A stretch of 38,797 nucleotides of DNA. Origin: a virus. The stretch lies in IMG/VR virus record IMGVR_UViG_3300042392_001559, positions 1 to 38,797 of that record; one strand, 5' to 3'. The notes under the pieces were generated by a model that did no database searches, was not told the origin of the DNA, and was given only the letters and a program-made list of their open reading frames with translations. The first letter of the stretch is position 1. The number at the start of each line of letters is the position of its first letter. The position numbers and the translations under genes are program-made. This document shows, piece by piece, positions 6,746 to 33,242 of this stretch.

Positions 6746-7196
6746 ACTGAAAACCGATAGCACACCGAGCAGCGGCGACAAGGTGCCAGAAGACGTGAAA
6801 CAAAGTGTCTTAGCTGCACTACGCTCAGGGACAGGCATGGTAGCCGTAGCAAGTGACCATGGCCTTTCTACGCACACTGTAGCAGCGATACGAGATCGAG
6901 CGGAAGAGAGCGACCCTAGCTTCAACCTGACCGCGTGGAAGAAGAGCACGGCTGCAACTCTGAGCCGATTCGTGAGCAAGGGAGCGAGTAAACTAGAGGA
7001 GCAGGTGGAGCAGATACCACTGGCTAGTTTACCCATCGCCATCGCCATTGCCATTGATAAAATCCAGGCGCTTCACGATCAGCCCCAAACCGTGGTCGAA
7101 CACCGACTTCGCGTTGATCATCAGGCAGTTAACTCCCTTTTTGACGCCAACAACATCGTTCTGGACGCAGAGCTTGTTGAGACTGATGAGGCTTAA
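6735..7196 (+). CDS. HTH protein, possible small terminase-like subunit
   Basis: The product has 153 residues. I chose ATG 6735 because AAGGAG at 6723-6728 sits six bases upstream, a good ribosome site. Residues about 20-55 form an HTH (VKQSVLAALRSGTGMVAVASDHGLSTHTVAAIRDR). The rest is helical, with LPIAIAIAIDKIQALHDQPQTVVEH, a pattern often seen in small-terminase-like phage proteins in which a DNA-binding head precedes an oligomerisation helix. No other TerS candidate lies near TerL, which starts 3.3 kb downstream. It could equally be a transcription regulator. Confidence 0.55.
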   Translation: MEGRLKTDSTPSSGDKVPEDVKQSVLAALRSGTGMVAVASDHGLSTHTVAAIRDRAEESDPSFNLTAWKKSTAATLSRFVSKGASKLEEQVEQIPLASLPIAIAIAIDKIQALHDQPQTVVEHRLRVDHQAVNSLFDANNIVLDAELVETDEA

Positions 7197-8116: not shown

Positions 8117-8189
8117 GAGCACGTGGCGAAATCCACCACGGAGCAGCCTGCAACTGCTCACAGGGAAAGTTCGATTCTTTCCGCGCTCA
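8117..8189 (+). tRNA. tRNA-like element 1 (73 nt), anticodon uncertain
   Basis: The acceptor GAGCACG (8117-8123) pairs with CGCGCTC (8182-8188) with one A.C mismatch. A T arm GAAAG-TTCGATT-CTTTC spans 8165-8181. An anticodon-like hairpin GAGCAG-CCTGCAA-CTGCTC (8141-8159) has a seven-base loop; by position the anticodon would be TGC (Ala), but base 33 is C, not the usual U. The D arm (GCGAAATCCACCACG) starts like a Leu tRNA but lacks GG. No CCA is encoded. It is flanked by AACTTT and TAATTT, as is element 2. It could be a divergent tRNA or a decayed one. Confidence 0.5.
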
Positions 8190-8306
8190 CCTAATTTCCG
8201 CTTAATCTGAGATGCTGGCGCTTTGCGGAATGGCACAAACAGCTAGCAGCTCTAGTGACAGCCCTTCACGAAACCGGCTCGGTTAGAGTATGGGCAATAC
8301 AACTTT
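8190..8306 (+). other. Spacer between tRNA-like elements 1 and 2
   Basis: I see no convincing gene here. A 24-codon frame exists but has no ribosome site. The 3' end carries the ACAACTTT leader that also precedes element 1. With the two elements and the stretch 8410-8526, this makes the 424-base gap between the 7584 gene and the exonuclease. Confidence 0.4.
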
Positions 8307-8409
8307 GAGCGCGTGCTGGAACAGGTAAACAGCGCTGTTAGCTCGGCGGGATAGCGTTTTAATGGCTAACAAAGCAAATCCCTTGCAGGTTCAAATCCTG
8401 CCGCGCTCG
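8307..8409 (+). tRNA. tRNA-like element 2 (103 nt), non-canonical
   Basis: A perfect 7-bp acceptor (GAGCGCG 8307-8313 with CGCGCTC 8402-8408) and a perfect T arm (GCAGG-TTCAAAT-CCTGC, 8385-8401) are present. A first D-arm-like segment (CTG-GAACAGGTAAA-CAG, 8316-8332) is followed by a second (TAGCTCGGCGGGATAGC, 8339-8355), so the middle is about 25 bases too long. GTTAGC (8337-8342) can pair with GCTAAC (8365-8370), but no canonical seven-base anticodon loop forms. It is flanked like element 1, so the pair looks duplicated. It may be a chimera of two tRNAs, an inserted tRNA or a tRNA mimic. Confidence 0.5.
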
Positions 8410-8526
8410 CTAATTTGGCATACTCGATGATACGCGTGAAAGTGTTGAGGATTGCACCGATGAGAAATTGCGGTCTATCCTTAGTGTTTGGAGAAGCATC
8501 AAAGCTGTAGCAAAAGGAGATTCAAA

Positions 8527-9176: not shown

Positions 9177-9275
9177 GCCATCGTGTCGTAACCGGGAATG
9201 AATACCGGGTCTGGCAACAGACTGGTAACGTGCCGCTATCAGCGGAGGATACAGGTTCGACTCCTGCCGATGGCC
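9177..9275 (+). tRNA. tRNA-like element 3 (99 nt), non-canonical
   Basis: A perfect 7-bp acceptor (GCCATCG 9177-9183 with CGATGGC 9268-9274) encloses a T arm with loop TTCGACT (9251-9267, four pairs plus A.C). Between them are 67 bases. A D-arm-like GCA...TGC has a CTGGTAA loop (9214-9233), and CCGCT-ATC-AGCGG (9233-9245) is a hairpin whose loop has only three bases where an anticodon loop should be. About 28 extra bases (9184-9211) follow the acceptor. GTCTG-GCAA-CAGAC (9209-9222) can form a tetraloop hairpin instead. A canonical tRNA cannot be folded by eye. Confidence 0.45.
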
Positions 9276-9301
9276 CTTACCAAATAACTAACTAAACACT
9301 T

Positions 9302-9499
9302 TTCCTGCTGTGCCTATGCTGGCCGATACTAAAGCGCAAAAGGGCACTAACCTCCTGGATATTTCCAGGGGACTTTTGCGGCGGCAGGAACCCCTTTTCC
9401 CGTGCTGTCTTTTCTACAGCCAACACCGGGTCAGCGATCTAAACGGCCATAAGAGCCAAGGAGCGCCGGGCGGGAATCCCCTTTCCTCCTCTTGAGGAA
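9302..9499 (+). ncRNA. Structured RNA with nested stems and a possible pseudoknot
   Basis: An outer stem TTCCTGC (9302-9308) pairs with GCAGGAA (9384-9390). Inside, CGCAAAAG (9335-9342) pairs with CTTTTGCG (9373-9380), and CTCCTGGA (9352-9359) pairs with TCCAGGGG (9364-9371) around TATT. GTGCC (9310-9314) can pair with GGCAC (9343-9347), crossing the second stem as an H-type pseudoknot. Two further hairpins follow: CCCG/GCTGT with ACAGC/CGGG (9399-9430) and TTCCTC-CTCTT-GAGGAA (9483-9499). No good gene covers the region. With the terminator that follows, it looks like a discrete RNA of about 250 bases. I know no family that matches. Confidence 0.6.
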
Positions 9500-9500
9500 C

Positions 9501-9556
9501 CCTCTAGTCGGTGGCAGGTCGCGTGGACTCCATGGCAGACTAGAGGTTATTTTTTT
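9501..9556 (+). terminator. Strong intrinsic terminator
   Basis: CCTCTAGTC (9501-9509) pairs perfectly with GACTAGAGG (9538-9546). The intervening 28 bases can fold further, and TTATTTTTTT (9547-9556) follows directly. This is a long hairpin plus U-tract of Rho-independent type. It would end transcription of the structured RNA before the small genes at 9584. Confidence 0.8.
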
Positions 9557-9766: not shown

Positions 9767-9843
9767 TCGAAGGACTGTCCTTCTTTGACGTAGCTCAGAT
9801 CATGGTGATGACGGTGGTCTTTCTCTACTTGATGGAGAAGTAA
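9763..9843 (+). CDS. 26-aa membrane peptide with Shine-Dalgarno
   Basis: ATG 9763 overlaps the previous stop (ATGA), with GGAGG at 9751-9755 seven bases upstream. The product (MIEGLSFFDVAQIMVMTVVF, then LYLMEK) is one transmembrane helix with a short charged end. The good ribosome site, coupling and clean hydrophobic segment make it a believable gene despite its size. It lies between two structured-RNA zones. Confidence 0.55.
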   Translation: MIEGLSFFDVAQIMVMTVVFLYLMEK

Positions 9844-9863
9844 ATACTCTCTCTCTGCCAAGA

Positions 9864-9877
9864 CCCCCCCTCCCCCC
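9864..9877 (+). repeat. C7-T-C6 pyrimidine tract, complement of 7317-7328
   Basis: Seven C, one T, six C. Bases 9866-9877 are the exact complement of the G6AG5 tract at 7317-7328. The tract opens the non-coding zone upstream of the terminase. Confidence 0.7.
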
Positions 9878-9949
9878 ATGATAATGGTGGTAAGGAAAGG
9901 CGACCATCCAGACTTGTTTATCCTCGCACTGGAACTTGCGCCCCCAACG

Positions 9950-10196
9950 AGTCATTCCGTTTCACGCTACGGAAAGCACTGACTTTCTCACGGCCTGCAC
10001 ATCGAGCGTTGCTAGTGTCTCCACTTTGCTGTCCTGTTTTGACTGGACGTTGGACAAGTAACCAGTAAACAAAGAGACCGCCGTGTGCAAGAACGGCGGC
10101 CTCTAGTGGTTTGCTGAAGGACGGAACGCGTCCTTGCACGACGCAAACCTTATGTTTCCGGTAACATATCCACGCAAAACGTCAAGCAAGGCTTGA
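9950..10196 (+). ncRNA. Run of hairpins upstream of the terminase
   Basis: Successive stems can be read: AGTCA+TTCCGT (9950-9960) with ACGGAA+TGACT (9969-9984); ACTGG (10042-10046) with CCAGT (10062-10066); AGAG+CCGCCGT (10073-10084) with ACGGCGG+CTCT (10093-10104); GGTTTGC (10108-10114) with GCAAACC (10143-10149), enclosing AAGGACG/CGTCCTT (10117-10135); TATGTT/AACATA (10151-10168); TCAAGC/GCTTGA (10182-10196). Apart from a gap after the first stem they are nearly back to back, which is much structure for 250 bases with no gene. It could be a leader of the virion operon, a trans-acting RNA, or the pac/cos recognition region. Confidence 0.55.
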
Positions 10197-10226
10197 TTGA
10201 ATGTTTTTGCAGGTATCGTTTTTCCT

Positions 10227-27965: not shown

Positions 27966-30900
27966 ATGCCAATCACGGTTTCTCTTCCGTCGCGTAATGT
28001 CGAATTGGAATTTCCCGACTCCATGACGGAGCAGGAGATTCAGCAGGCCATTGATAAAGAGTATCCGAGATCCGGCCAAGACGTAGCTTTTGAAGTAGAT
28101 CAAGCCACACAGCAATCTGTTGAGGGTGGTAACTTGGTGAATCCATTCGATCAAATGTCGAATGACGATTATATCATGTTTCGCAATCACTTGGCGCAGA
28201 AGAAAAGCTCTTTTGGTGACGCCTTGGGAATAGCTGTCGATACAGTCAAAAATATCACTGATGAAATTGGCACTGGTATTGGCGCAACCGCTTACAATGT
28301 AGCGCAAGGCAATGTTGGACAGGCTTATGAGTCTGCTAAACAAGGTTTAGTGGCTGGAACTGTTGGATTGGTAGATATTGCTGACAAGATTCTTAATCCA
28401 GTTCAAGAGATACCAAATAAAGAGGAGTTTCTAAAGCAGACCAAGGATCAGCCTACTGAAACGATTGCTGACGAAAGTAGTCCTTTTGGCCGCAAGCAAA
28501 TTCCTAACACAGAACAGGATTACGTTGCTCTAGTTGAGCAGCAAAAAGCTAGGGATCGTGATGCTACCAATCGCCTCTTTGCAATAGAAGCAAGCTTGCG
28601 AGGTGCGCCCATTGAAGAGGTTTCCCGTGCCTTTCAATATGTTGATCCTGGCTTACTCACTGGTGGCGCTTCCGCTCTGATTCGTGGAGGTGCTAAAACC
28701 TTGTTTAAGGCTGGCGCTAAAACCGCTGCACAAGCTGGTGCACAGACTGGCATTCAAACAGCGGGACGTGTGGCAGCTTCAACGGCTCCTGGGCCAATAA
28801 AACAAGCGGCTCTGACCGCCGTAGAGACTGGCGCAGGTGCAGCACAGCTAGCTGGCAGCCTCCCAGGTCGTGCCATTCAATTAACGGGTGATGTTATGGA
28901 GAACCTGCTTCCAGGCACAGGTGCTCCGGTCAAAGCGGTGGGTATAGCTGGCGGTTTAATGTCTGACCTTGGCGTCAGCGCGGCAGGACTCGCTGCCACA
29001 GAGAAAGCCGCTGAAGTGGTTAAAGGTGTCGCCAGAGCTGCCAAAGGTGAAGCTTCTCGCGTTGGTCCTTTGGAACAAGTAGCGATGAATCCGAGCGTAT
29101 CTCCGACAGCTCGAAAACTAGCCGCTGGCCTAGCTCAAGTTCAGCCGATCTTCGGCACTGCTGGCAGGATTGCAAGCCAAGCATTGAAAGAGGCAGGAGT
29201 TGGCGCAGCCGTTGGTGCTGGCCTTGGATACCTCGCAGAACGCAACCTAGAAGGCGCAGCCGCTGCCGCTGGTGCTGGCACTGTTTTCGGCGGAGCAACT
29301 GGCGTATTCAGAGGCACATTCAGAGCAGGTCGTGAAGCTTTAGGCTACTCCACAGAGCGAACCACAAGGCAAGCAACGGGTGACATCAATAGCTTCATCG
29401 CTGAACGTCCCGAGATGGAGCAAGCTGCCTGGGCGCAGACCATGAACAGATTGGCCCAAAATATCGGCCCTGAGAAAGCGGCGGCTCAAGCTGATGCGTT
29501 GCGTATCGCTGAAGCGAATGGCAGCAAAGTCAGGCTCGCTACTCCAGATGAAACGAAGCAATGGCAGAATCCTGGCTGGCTAAACATTGATGGTAACGGC
29601 CAAGAAATCGTTCTAAATCCTCAGCAAATCCTTGGGGATACCGCAGCGCATGAAACAGCTCACGTCTTGTTTGCCTCAACCCTCAACAGGGCATTCAGAC
29701 CTGAGATTGAAACGGCTATCTTTGGAACTGTTGACCCTGTAAACGGTGAGATTATCCGCCCCGGCTTATTTAGCGACCCTGACCTTGCTAAGGTAGCGGA
29801 TCAAATCGCCGATTCGTATGGCAATAATACAACCGCTTCCAATGAGTTCAGAGGCTATGCAAACCGTTTGCGAAACACTACGGACGCAGCCGCTTTATCT
29901 GAGGCTAGAACGCGTATTGCAGACGAATTAACCGCCACCTACACCGGCAAATTGTTTGGCCGTTTGCGCGCTGGTAGATTCAATCCTGACCGCCTACCGT
30001 TAGTTTATCGCCGCGTCCTAAACGGTATCGAGGACAGCATCGTCGATAAGCTGAGAACTACTCTTTTTGAGCAAGGTATGGACCTTGGATTCAATGCAGC
30101 TAGAGGAGCTTTTACAGATGCCAAAGGGCGTCTTGTTCGCATTCCAGAGCTAGACGCTATCATCAAAAAAGCCATGCAGCCAAGCCGTAAAACGGCTGCA
30201 CAGGCTAAGGTCAAAGGTAAACCTGACCTGATTCCAAAAAACCCCGTTGATCGTGCTATCTGGGCGCGTTCCTATGGTGGTGCTCGTGGAATCCTAAACG
30301 ATGACCTAACACCAAAGAGTGTCGCTCAGATGGAGCAAGAGAAGGTGGCACGCTGGCAAGACATGACTTCCAGGCTCTCAGCGTTGCCAGAGTCAGAGCG
30401 CACCGGCATCCAGTTCAGTCGCGATGCTAAAGGCAACACAGTCATGACCGCCAAGGGACAGCTAAGTGATGCCGCAATAAACCAGATCCTAAGCAGCAAG
30501 GCATTTGATCAGTCTAGCGTTGCTGTCTTGCGTGAAGTTTTAACATCTCTGCAAAACTTTGAAAAGGCTACTTTCGACACTCGTTACTACGGCGTTTATG
30601 ACCGTGGAAGAGGAAGCAGTAAGATGGTTGCTGGTGTTAAATCAGCCAGCCAAAATGAGATTCTACCTTACTCCGTAGAAGCCAACAGCCAACAAGGCGT
30701 CATCATTCGTGCGGTCGATATGACCGCTGTGCGTGACCGCCTGATGACTGCTCTCAAAAAGCCTCAATTCAAGTATTTATACAGCAACGGCGGAGAGGCA
30801 ATAAAGGACTTCAGAGCCTACCTGACCAACCTGACAAATATCAATGCCGTTCCGTCTGATATTATGTTTGGCGGTGGCCCTAAAGGCGCTCAGAAGCGAA

Positions 30901-33242
30901 ACCTATTCTATGATGCCCTTGGCTTCCGCTTGCGCAACAATGAGACGTTATTAAATGCGCCTGCTGATGTCATTTCCAAATCGCAAAACACCATCAAAAG
31001 CTACCGCGTTGAACGCTTTGCTAAGCTGGTCGATTCTGGCGAGCGTTTAGCTTTCGAGGAAGCCACAACTTTCGAGAGGGCAATGAAGAACTTCCAGCCC
31101 TCCGCTTTCGTCCGCGAGACTCTTCCCAACGGTGAGACGCTAACGAACCCAGATGGCTACCGCATCCTCAAGAAAACAGGTGGCAAACTCTTCCGCGTTT
31201 ATGACGATAATGGCGCTTTGCTAGGCATTAGCTCAAGCGAGGATGCTGCCATGAAGAAGGCGCAGAGTGATTATGCGAAGAAGGTGGAGAAGGAGTCTAA
31301 AAAACCTAGCATCATTGAAGCTCCACCTGTTGTAAGAGAGTTTGCAGATGGTTACAAGCTGACACAACCCGGTCTAATTCGTTTCCAGCCTGTTCGCGCT
31401 TACCACGGCACACCGCATAAGGTGGACAAGTTCACGACGGACAAAATTGGCACAGGCGAAGGCGCGCAGGCTTACGGGTGGGGGCTATATTTTGCTAAAG
31501 CTCGGGCTGTTGCTGAAGAATATCGAAAAACGCTTTCTACTACGATTACGGTTGGCGGAAAGCAGTTGCTTAAAAACAATCAAAAAATCACAAGCACTGG
31601 CGACAGTTATGTGGATAATTTATTGATTGCGCATGATGGTGATTTGGAGTCGGCTATTGCTTCTGAACGTGTTTACGCAGATTCGATGGCGGCACAAAGC
31701 AAGCAATCGCGCAAGACTGCAACAGGAGACCCTTATGAAATTTTAAACAAACTCATTGCTTTGCAGCAAAAGCAAAGTGTTGAAGTTCAAACCACAGGCA
31801 ATCTCTACACCGTCGAACTTCTGCCCGATGAAGCTGACTTCCTCGATTGGGATAAGCCGCTGAGTGAGCAGAGCGAGAAGGTGAAGGCGGCGCTTTATTC
31901 AGCTTATGAAGCCCGAGGCGTGGACACTCAACAAGAAAATTTTGGCTGGCAATCTGGCCAAATGGCTTATAAAGCCATGATGGACGAGGGCGCCCGTAAA
32001 GAGCAAAGGAAGCTCCCGCCAAGTAAGAGAAACAATGGCAGTCTCGAAAAGCAAGCTTCTGAATACCTCGCCTCCCTTGGCATCCCCGGCATCCGCTACC
32101 TAGACGGACAAAGCCGTGGCTCAGGTGAAGGCACTCACAACTATGTCATTTTTGATGAAAACTTAGTGAAGATCATCGAAGAGAATGGGAAACCGGTGGG
32201 TGAATCTCCAGCCATCAAGCGCTTTCAGCCTGTCTCACCCGAGCAGGATGCGGGTATCTTTGAACAAAAGGGGCTTGAAAATCATGTCTTAAAGCCCATT
32301 TTAGGCGCTGCTTTTACATTTAATCCCAAGAAAATAAATGAAAAATACATCAAACAAGCCAAAGAGGTTGCAGATAGGCTGGGCGGTGGAAGCGCCTTTA
32401 ACCCTAGCCGAAAATCAGGCGATGATGGCCAGGCGAGGGTCCAAATGGACGGACTCAGATCAAGCGAACTACGAACGAAACAGGAAATTGATGCTCGAAT
32501 CCTTCAAGATTCGCCAAACGGCGTAATTAAAGAAGGAGGTGAACATTTTAGTTTTATCCCCGATAATAAAGATTATGTAATTAAAGTTACAAAACCCAGC
32601 GAAACGGGAACATCTGGCTTTATAGTTGATGAATATGTTGCTCCTGGATTTGATCAAAAACAATTCAGATTCTTAAATTTCAGAAGAGCTTCAGTTTCTG
32701 AATATGTGGCAAGAACCGCTTTATTTTCTAAACTTTTCAATATTCCTTGGCAGGTTGTTGAAGTTGCTCAAGACGCTGATGGGCAACCCGTCATTTATTC
32801 AATGATGAAGAAAATCGAGGGAGAGAGATTGAAAGACACCAGTCCTAGCGATAGAAATGCCGTTGAAAAATTAATGGAATCCAAGGGCTTTAAGTTTCTT
32901 GGTGATAGTTATCTAACTTTCAGAAAAGGGTCTGAACCATTAGAAGGCATTACTTTTTTCAATGCAAAAACTGGAGTGCTCATTTCTGATGCTGAGCCTA
33001 GAAATTTTGTTCGAACGCCGTCGGGAAAAATTGAGCCGGTTGATTTAATGATCAATGTTTTTCCGACGGAATACAATATCCGCTTTCAGCCTGACTCCGC
33101 TTCCCCGTCCATCCTAAACGGCTCCAACGGCACCAGGATCATCAAATCTCCCTCAGGCAAGTTCCGTGTTTACTCTGCCACAGGCGCATTGTTAGGCATC
33201 CGGGACACCGAGGAAGCAGCCAAGAAACTAGCAACTAAATAA
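27966..33242 (+). CDS. Giant polyvalent protein: peptidase motif, ART-like and kinase-like modules
   Basis: The product has 1758 residues. Residues 1-35 are an ejection-protein-type leader (LEFPDSMTEQEIQQAIDKEY). About 200-460 is Ala/Gly-rich and helical, suited to membrane insertion. HETAH at 562-566 is a metallopeptidase motif. A long central polyvalent-type region follows to about 1060. An ART-like module has YHGTPH (1146-1151), YGWGLYFA (1170-1177) and HNYVIFD (1391-1397). A kinase-like module has an EGGEHF loop (1523-1528), VIK (Lys1540), DAEPRN (Asp1675, Asn1680) and VDL (Asp1693). RFQP recurs at 1139, 1419 and 1706. It is probably packaged and injected with the DNA to modify host targets; activities are inferred from motifs. 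Confidence 0.85.
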   Translation: MPITVSLPSRNVELEFPDSMTEQEIQQAIDKEYPRSGQDVAFEVDQATQQSVEGGNLVNPFDQMSNDDYIMFRNHLAQKKSSFGDALGIAVDTVKNITDEIGTGIGATAYNVAQGNVGQAYESAKQGLVAGTVGLVDIADKILNPVQEIPNKEEFLKQTKDQPTETIADESSPFGRKQIPNTEQDYVALVEQQKARDRDATNRLFAIEASLRGAPIEEVSRAFQYVDPGLLTGGASALIRGGAKTLFKAGAKTAAQAGAQTGIQTAGRVAASTAPGPIKQAALTAVETGAGAAQLAGSLPGRAIQLTGDVMENLLPGTGAPVKAVGIAGGLMSDLGVSAAGLAATEKAAEVVKGVARAAKGEASRVGPLEQVAMNPSVSPTARKLAAGLAQVQPIFGTAGRIASQALKEAGVGAAVGAGLGYLAERNLEGAAAAAGAGTVFGGATGVFRGTFRAGREALGYSTERTTRQATGDINSFIAERPEMEQAAWAQTMNRLAQNIGPEKAAAQADALRIAEANGSKVRLATPDETKQWQNPGWLNIDGNGQEIVLNPQQILGDTAAHETAHVLFASTLNRAFRPEIETAIFGTVDPVNGEIIRPGLFSDPDLAKVADQIADSYGNNTTASNEFRGYANRLRNTTDAAALSEARTRIADELTATYTGKLFGRLRAGRFNPDRLPLVYRRVLNGIEDSIVDKLRTTLFEQGMDLGFNAARGAFTDAKGRLVRIPELDAIIKKAMQPSRKTAAQAKVKGKPDLIPKNPVDRAIWARSYGGARGILNDDLTPKSVAQMEQEKVARWQDMTSRLSALPESERTGIQFSRDAKGNTVMTAKGQLSDAAINQILSSKAFDQSSVAVLREVLTSLQNFEKATFDTRYYGVYDRGRGSSKMVAGVKSASQNEILPYSVEANSQQGVIIRAVDMTAVRDRLMTALKKPQFKYLYSNGGEAIKDFRAYLTNLTNINAVPSDIMFGGGPKGAQKRNLFYDALGFRLRNNETLLNAPADVISKSQNTIKSYRVERFAKLVDSGERLAFEEATTFERAMKNFQPSAFVRETLPNGETLTNPDGYRILKKTGGKLFRVYDDNGALLGISSSEDAAMKKAQSDYAKKVEKESKKPSIIEAPPVVREFADGYKLTQPGLIRFQPVRAYHGTPHKVDKFTTDKIGTGEGAQAYGWGLYFAKARAVAEEYRKTLSTTITVGGKQLLKNNQKITSTGDSYVDNLLIAHDGDLESAIASERVYADSMAAQSKQSRKTATGDPYEILNKLIALQQKQSVEVQTTGNLYTVELLPDEADFLDWDKPLSEQSEKVKAALYSAYEARGVDTQQENFGWQSGQMAYKAMMDEGARKEQRKLPPSKRNNGSLEKQASEYLASLGIPGIRYLDGQSRGSGEGTHNYVIFDENLVKIIEENGKPVGESPAIKRFQPVSPEQDAGIFEQKGLENHVLKPILGAAFTFNPKKINEKYIKQAKEVADRLGGGSAFNPSRKSGDDGQARVQMDGLRSSELRTKQEIDARILQDSPNGVIKEGGEHFSFIPDNKDYVIKVTKPSETGTSGFIVDEYVAPGFDQKQFRFLNFRRASVSEYVARTALFSKLFNIPWQVVEVAQDADGQPVIYSMMKKIEGERLKDTSPSDRNAVEKLMESKGFKFLGDSYLTFRKGSEPLEGITFFNAKTGVLISDAEPRNFVRTPSGKIEPVDLMINVFPTEYNIRFQPDSASPSILNGSNGTRIIKSPSGKFRVYSATGALLGIRDTEEAAKKLATK

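Follow-up and report, generated by a model that had tools for sequence, protein, structure and literature searches.

A structured-RNA family with a four-base-pair pseudoknot lying between the genes of uncultured phages

Comparative sequence analysis gave good support for a new structured-RNA family in phages, whose predicted fold consists of helix P1, hairpin P2, helix P4, an invariant U·G pair and a 4-bp pseudoknot. It is represented by domain 1 (9302-9390) of the window, which is the whole IMG/VR virus record IMGVR_UViG_3300042392_001559 of 38,797 bases. The element is a self-contained module located between genes, usually with one copy per phage record. We put the probability at about one half that the RNA is excised from phage transcripts and acts in trans. 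The novelty lies in the fold and the core of this RNA family and not in the general notion of structured RNAs in phages.

The window encodes a DnaB-like helicase, a RecE-like exonuclease, a terminase, a portal and a major head protein. The end of the exonuclease gene (9159) and a 68-aa ORF (9560) bracket the region 9302-9556, for which a first-pass annotation had proposed one discrete pseudoknotted non-coding RNA. Its view that the region contains no believable gene was borne out, since a 61-aa GTG ORF (9310-9495) crosses the conserved RNA core. The nested stems it described were present as well, and the minimum-energy fold of the window element contained P1, P4 and P5. The parts of domain 1 are the following:

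9302-9390, plus strand: domain 1, whole RNA element, matched by covariance model R1, fold z −3.9, conserved flanks about 9296-9398
9302-9310, plus strand: P1 5′ strand, partner 9382-9390, compensatory changes at 7 of 9 pairs
9311, plus strand: junction U at the base of P1, opposite G9381 in a U·G pair, invariant in 64/64 distinct sequences
9312-9314/9321-9323, plus strand: P2 hairpin, loop 9315-9320, exchange between GCC/GGC and GUC/GAC
9317-9320, plus strand: UGCU of the P2 loop, 5′ strand of the pseudoknot, partner 9343-9346
9335-9342, plus strand: P4 5′ strand, 8 bp with 9373-9380, compensatory changes at 8 of 8 pairs
9343-9346, plus strand: pseudoknot 3′ strand GGCA, immediately 3′ of the P4 5′ strand
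9352-9359/9364-9371, plus strand: P5 hairpin of the minimum-energy fold, varying within the family
9373-9380, plus strand: P4 3′ strand, partner of 9335-9342
9382-9390, plus strand: P1 3′ strand, part of a new P1 in members found later

P1 closes the element and a three-way junction holds P2 and P4, while P5 varies freely in length and sequence among family members and the insert between P2 and P4 is freely variable too. Conservation reached at least 90% at 26 positions of the family and dropped to background about 6 nt 5′ and about 10 nt 3′ of P1; a U-rich linker on each side of P1 falls inside these conserved flanks. Family members measured about 90-200 nt. The window element is among the shortest forms, and the P2-P4 insert reached about 90 nt in other members.

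Relatives of domain 1 were present in other phages (L-numbers denote the related viral loci or contigs compared with the window). A covariance model built from 11 sequences separated true from chance matches. On the window, model R1 matched 9298-9394 with 96.5 bits (E 9e-21; the window is a seed member), and held-out members scored 37-77 bits, which supports the model. Further members came from scanning 2.9 million viral contigs for the pattern of the conserved 5′ core and from two additional viral scans in which the first helix was relaxed; member counts from these scans are lower bounds, i.e. at least so many among the matches listed. About six unrelated chance matches of the 5′-core scan were recognised by the absence of the 3′ partner. 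The resulting alignment, A4, held 65 matches, 64 of them distinct, all from uncultured virus contigs.

Homologues with compensatory changes, whose absence would have spoken against the earlier proposal, were found in large number. With the structure held fixed, 95.7% of the cells in A4 were paired, and slid controls did not exceed 56%; changes on both sides were seen at 21 of 26 pairs, and double-changed cells numbered 239 as against 63 in shuffles. As a null, columns were simulated independently along the sequence tree (57 rows, 68 columns, 200 sets), and the summed covariation of P1, of P2, of P4 and of the 4-bp pseudoknot each lay above all 200 sets. Members that had been found by the 5′ core alone brought P1 sequences absent from model building, e.g. 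TTCGTCCCG/CGGGACGAA and CGTCACTCG/CGAGTGACG, and nearly all of these were fully paired; the P1 of L256 has one mismatch, and the rows of L238, L264 and L137 look shifted or cut solely because of the section printed. The family helices include G·U pairs, which, together with an orientation in the sense of the genes at nearly all loci (L140 being the exception), points to an RNA rather than a DNA element.

The pseudoknot that had been predicted exists, with another 5′ partner than the one assigned to it: the strand GGCA pairs with the P2 loop (9317-9320) and not with the first GUGCC. Its summed covariation was 52.5, compared with 0.3 ± 4.1 in the null, and it occurred across the family as UGCU/AGCA, UGCC/GGCA, CGCU/AGCG and CGUU/AACG, as well as UCCU/AGGA in the second copy of L163. 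This support holds at the level of the helix, individual pseudoknot pairs being without significance over all column pairs. When A4 was fitted to the covariance model, P1, P2 and P4 were favoured and the pseudoknot was not, because the model contains no pseudoknot. The crossing helix originally suggested, GTGCC (9310-9314) with GGCAC (9343-9347), showed no covariation in the family, with 153 of 200 simulated sets reaching as high a value, and we rejected this GUGCC/GGCAC register on the grounds of the tree-aware simulation.

One may ask whether domain 1, lying where genes are sparse, folds as it does by chance, a notion encouraged by the fact that the entire 255 nt were no more stable than shuffled sequences (z −0.82, 42 of 200 shuffles as good). 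We give it hardly any credence, and for domain 1 it is refuted by covariation, which was seen among the 64 sequences as well as in held-out members. Alone, 9302-9393 folded with −39.1 kcal/mol at z −3.9, and none of 200 shuffles equalled it. The low stability of the whole does not agree, on the other hand, with one discrete 255-nt RNA, and neither does the organisation of the region 3′ of domain 1, where the following parts lie:

9397-9476, plus strand: domain 2, stem-closed (UUCCCG...CGGGAA), homologues 94-99% identical and in sister contigs only
9483-9499, plus strand: small hairpin with a CUCUU loop, stem changed yet paired in L054 and L073
9501-9556, plus strand: terminator-like stem 9501-9509/9538-9546 with T-tract, kept in both L054 and L073, the latter with a paired base change

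The small hairpin (9483-9488/9494-9499), the 9-bp terminator stem and the T-tract were all as previously described; a simple scan missed the terminator because its inner part exceeds the 8-nt loop limit. Domain 2 alone gave a fold z of −0.25, and its structure is unproven since its homologues are confined to sister contigs. Two such contigs, L024 and L025, are 96-99% identical around the region and carry extra small ORFs. The ORF of L024 (2676-2954) separates domain 1 from domain 2 and that of L025 (3110-3468) separates domain 2 from the hairpin-terminator, which makes a single 255-nt RNA unlikely. Domain 2 is missing from L054, where domain 1, hairpin and terminator are all present, L073 has hairpin and terminator without domain 1, and domain 1 was found elsewhere without domain 2. 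These ORFs and partial sets indicate that domain 1, domain 2 and the hairpin-terminator are separable, so that what had been taken for an RNA of about 250 nt with a terminator at its end is better described as a row of modules. The small ORF of L024 ends in TAACTAA; in the window, a three-frame stop, TAACTAACTAA, stands directly upstream of domain 1 without an ORF and may be what is left of a cassette since lost.

For 9302-9390, the assignment as a pseudoknotted non-coding RNA of no known class held up, because compensatory homologues exist and known classes do not match. At gathering thresholds, Rfam 15 gave no match to domain 1 in the window or in 12 related loci, nor in permissive scans of three members, where permissive thresholds returned weak chance matches only. 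P1, the U·G pair, P2, P4, the pseudoknot between the P2 loop and J4 and the conserved core were all found, which places the element in the new family. The absence of a match extended to the covariance model of the pistol ribozyme in the permissive scans. The order of helices, which runs from hairpin loop through helix and loop partner to hairpin and helix, resembles that of pistol, with which the comparison was made through Rfam; the element, however, has an extra enclosing P1, an 8-bp P4, a 4-bp pseudoknot and a different core.

Few new RNA folds show both strong covariation and an invariant core, and those that do are often found to be ribozymes, sensors or components of RNA-protein machines. 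The RNA might be a new class of small self-cleaving ribozyme acting in cis on the polycistronic RNA of phages, with a putative active site formed by docking of the P2-loop pseudoknot against P4; we consider this rather unlikely. If true, it would add a new natural self-cleaving class, one that environmental phages carry as a single, exchangeable module. The compact pseudoknot, the invariant junction, the freely variable loops and the pistol-like helix order would suit such a role. Both ends, however, lie in the approximately 9-bp P1, which is atypical for a ribozyme ending at its cleavage site, no cleavage site could be assigned and no Rfam ribozyme model matched, even permissively. Precedents are the hammerhead ribozymes found in phage intergenic regions (PMC3088659) and the HDV-like theta ribozymes, pseudoknotted phage RNAs often located beside tRNAs (PMC10879173). 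Hammerheads differ from the element in core and topology and gave no match. Theta ribozymes form a nested double pseudoknot in which P3 is placed between P2 and the 3′ strand of P1, whereas in the element the loop partner directly follows the first strand of P4; we rejected an HDV-like or theta topology, as the helix order misfits, the nested double pseudoknot is absent and Rfam gave no match.

GOLLD and ROOL are structured RNAs of phages and prophages as well, often near tRNA genes, whose function is not established (PMC12286853). Both are far larger, GOLLD exceeding 800 nt in many members, and the element shares with these RNAs neither a sequence core nor a covariance-model match. The tRNAs and tRNA-like RNAs of the same phages have genomic slots and U-rich linkers in common with the element, which itself lacks a cloverleaf and a T-arm; ARAGORN made no tRNA or tmRNA call on the window element, introns allowed. 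Two other candidates were set aside: a readthrough or frameshift element, suggested by the position after stop codons, since these codons are not the same and none of the frames stays consistently open across the RNA, and a packaging RNA, since most members do not precede a terminase gene, although some do.

The element exchanges genomic slots with tRNA-like RNAs, one of which lies upstream in the same array:

9177-9277, plus strand: tRNA-like RNA, tRNA-Sec 18.9 bits (below threshold), T-arm-like CAGGTTCGACTCCTG

The window contains two more (8117-8191 and 8305-8410); the arms of these RNAs are odd or expanded and their tRNA scores low, and two of the three have a GAGC-type closing stem with ACUUUG in front. 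A group I-like intron in a split tRNA was considered, since tRNA-like halves are nearby, and rejected because these halves belong to stem-closed modules of their own. The slot following a gene that ends in KFQPRRLGKF is occupied by two tRNA-like RNAs in the window, by domain 1 RNA in L026, L029 and L054, by a different module in L065, by hairpin and terminator in L073 and by a tRNA-like RNA with a degenerate element copy in L075, and it is empty in L002 and L008. The copy in L075 (2569-2660) has kept P1 and a P4-like helix and is without P2 and the pseudoknot. For 9 of 42 elements a T-arm-like motif lay no farther than 400 nt away; the density of such motifs was 0.31 per kb near elements versus 0.008 elsewhere (about 40-fold). 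A second stem-closed module was observed in L065 (about 885-1000), L080 (about 7075-7180) and L106 (about 960-1065); it has a T-arm-like hairpin and a conserved AGTATCTCCGCAAAACCCAAGAAGCCCGG core, and its closing stem varies between phages with pairing kept.

Our preferred reading, excision followed by action in trans, would start with co-transcription of the element with phage genes. Excision might then proceed in a tRNA-like manner at the short U-rich linkers that flank the element, and the closed P1 stem would protect the released RNA. The stable folded RNA would act in trans, probably as a ligand of the ribosome or of a protein from host or phage. Action in trans fits the occurrence in single copy, the changing neighbours and the exchange with tRNA-like modules. 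Against this reading, most elements show neither a promoter nor a terminator of their own, and a clear tRNA-like neighbour was found at a minority of elements only. The element was carried by 34 of 43 viral records searched whole, 32 of them with one copy and two with two; L267 also has two copies. Neighbouring genes encode an Enc34-type ssDNA-binding protein, RecT, a RecE-like exonuclease, AAA_24, DNA polymerase A, terminase, DUF5872, a methyltransferase and in one case a GIY-YIG/NUMOD3 protein. The element spans dozens of unrelated uncultured environmental phages with different replication and packaging genes, and it points to a wider pattern in which uncultured phages keep interchangeable structured-RNA modules between genes.

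The position relative to genes could also be taken in favour of a cis-acting mRNA element, i.e. a block to 3′ exonucleases, an insulator of translation or a regulatory site for a phage protein. At least 17 elements start no more than about 20 nt after a stop codon, in L171, L047 and L163, where the next start codon follows the element after 7-20 nt, it occupies the entire gap, and a terminator follows slightly downstream in the window and in L054. A general gene-boundary element would be expected to recur, however, whereas this one is usually present in a single copy; its neighbours differ and the next gene is sometimes hundreds of bases away, so that we find a role in cis doubtful. A riboswitch-like sensor that couples a ligand to the downstream gene would find some support in the P1-closed junction and the loop-strand pseudoknot, which resemble aptamer domains; it is very improbable given that the downstream gene is not constant and that no recurrent expression platform was seen.

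The element itself recombines, as judged from P2-P4 inserts common to otherwise different members (L080 and L100; L098 and L181) and from L175 and L180, which have the 5′ half in common and not the 3′ half. In L186 (8883-9091), P5 carries four tandem copies of a repeat of about 32 nt, and the element begins 6 nt after the end of a gene resembling GIY-YIG/NUMOD3 homing endonucleases.

BLAST searches of cultured-phage and plasmid records with several members returned nothing or one short spurious match, and no paper with the core sequence was found in the open-access literature. A one-pattern scan of a genome collection gave two matches inside a coding gene of Oxalobacteraceae/Burkholderiaceae MAGs, which the covariance model rejected; in 398 genomes of the phylum of these MAGs two matches appeared, at E 0.004-0.01 per genome, i.e. 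at chance expectation. Relatives of the terminase pointed to no useful host. A Shine-Dalgarno-like motif preceded 5 of 39 start codons of the window, and this scarcity suggests that the host of the window phage initiates translation without Shine-Dalgarno sequences. A 1758-aa ORF of the window (27966-33242) gave a borderline match to the ADP-ribosyltransferase domain of polyvalent proteins (PF18760; 30.8 bits vs a cut-off of 31.2). A long non-coding stretch at 9840-10200 precedes the ORF at 10197, and parts of it are 75-78% identical in L042, L046 and L048.
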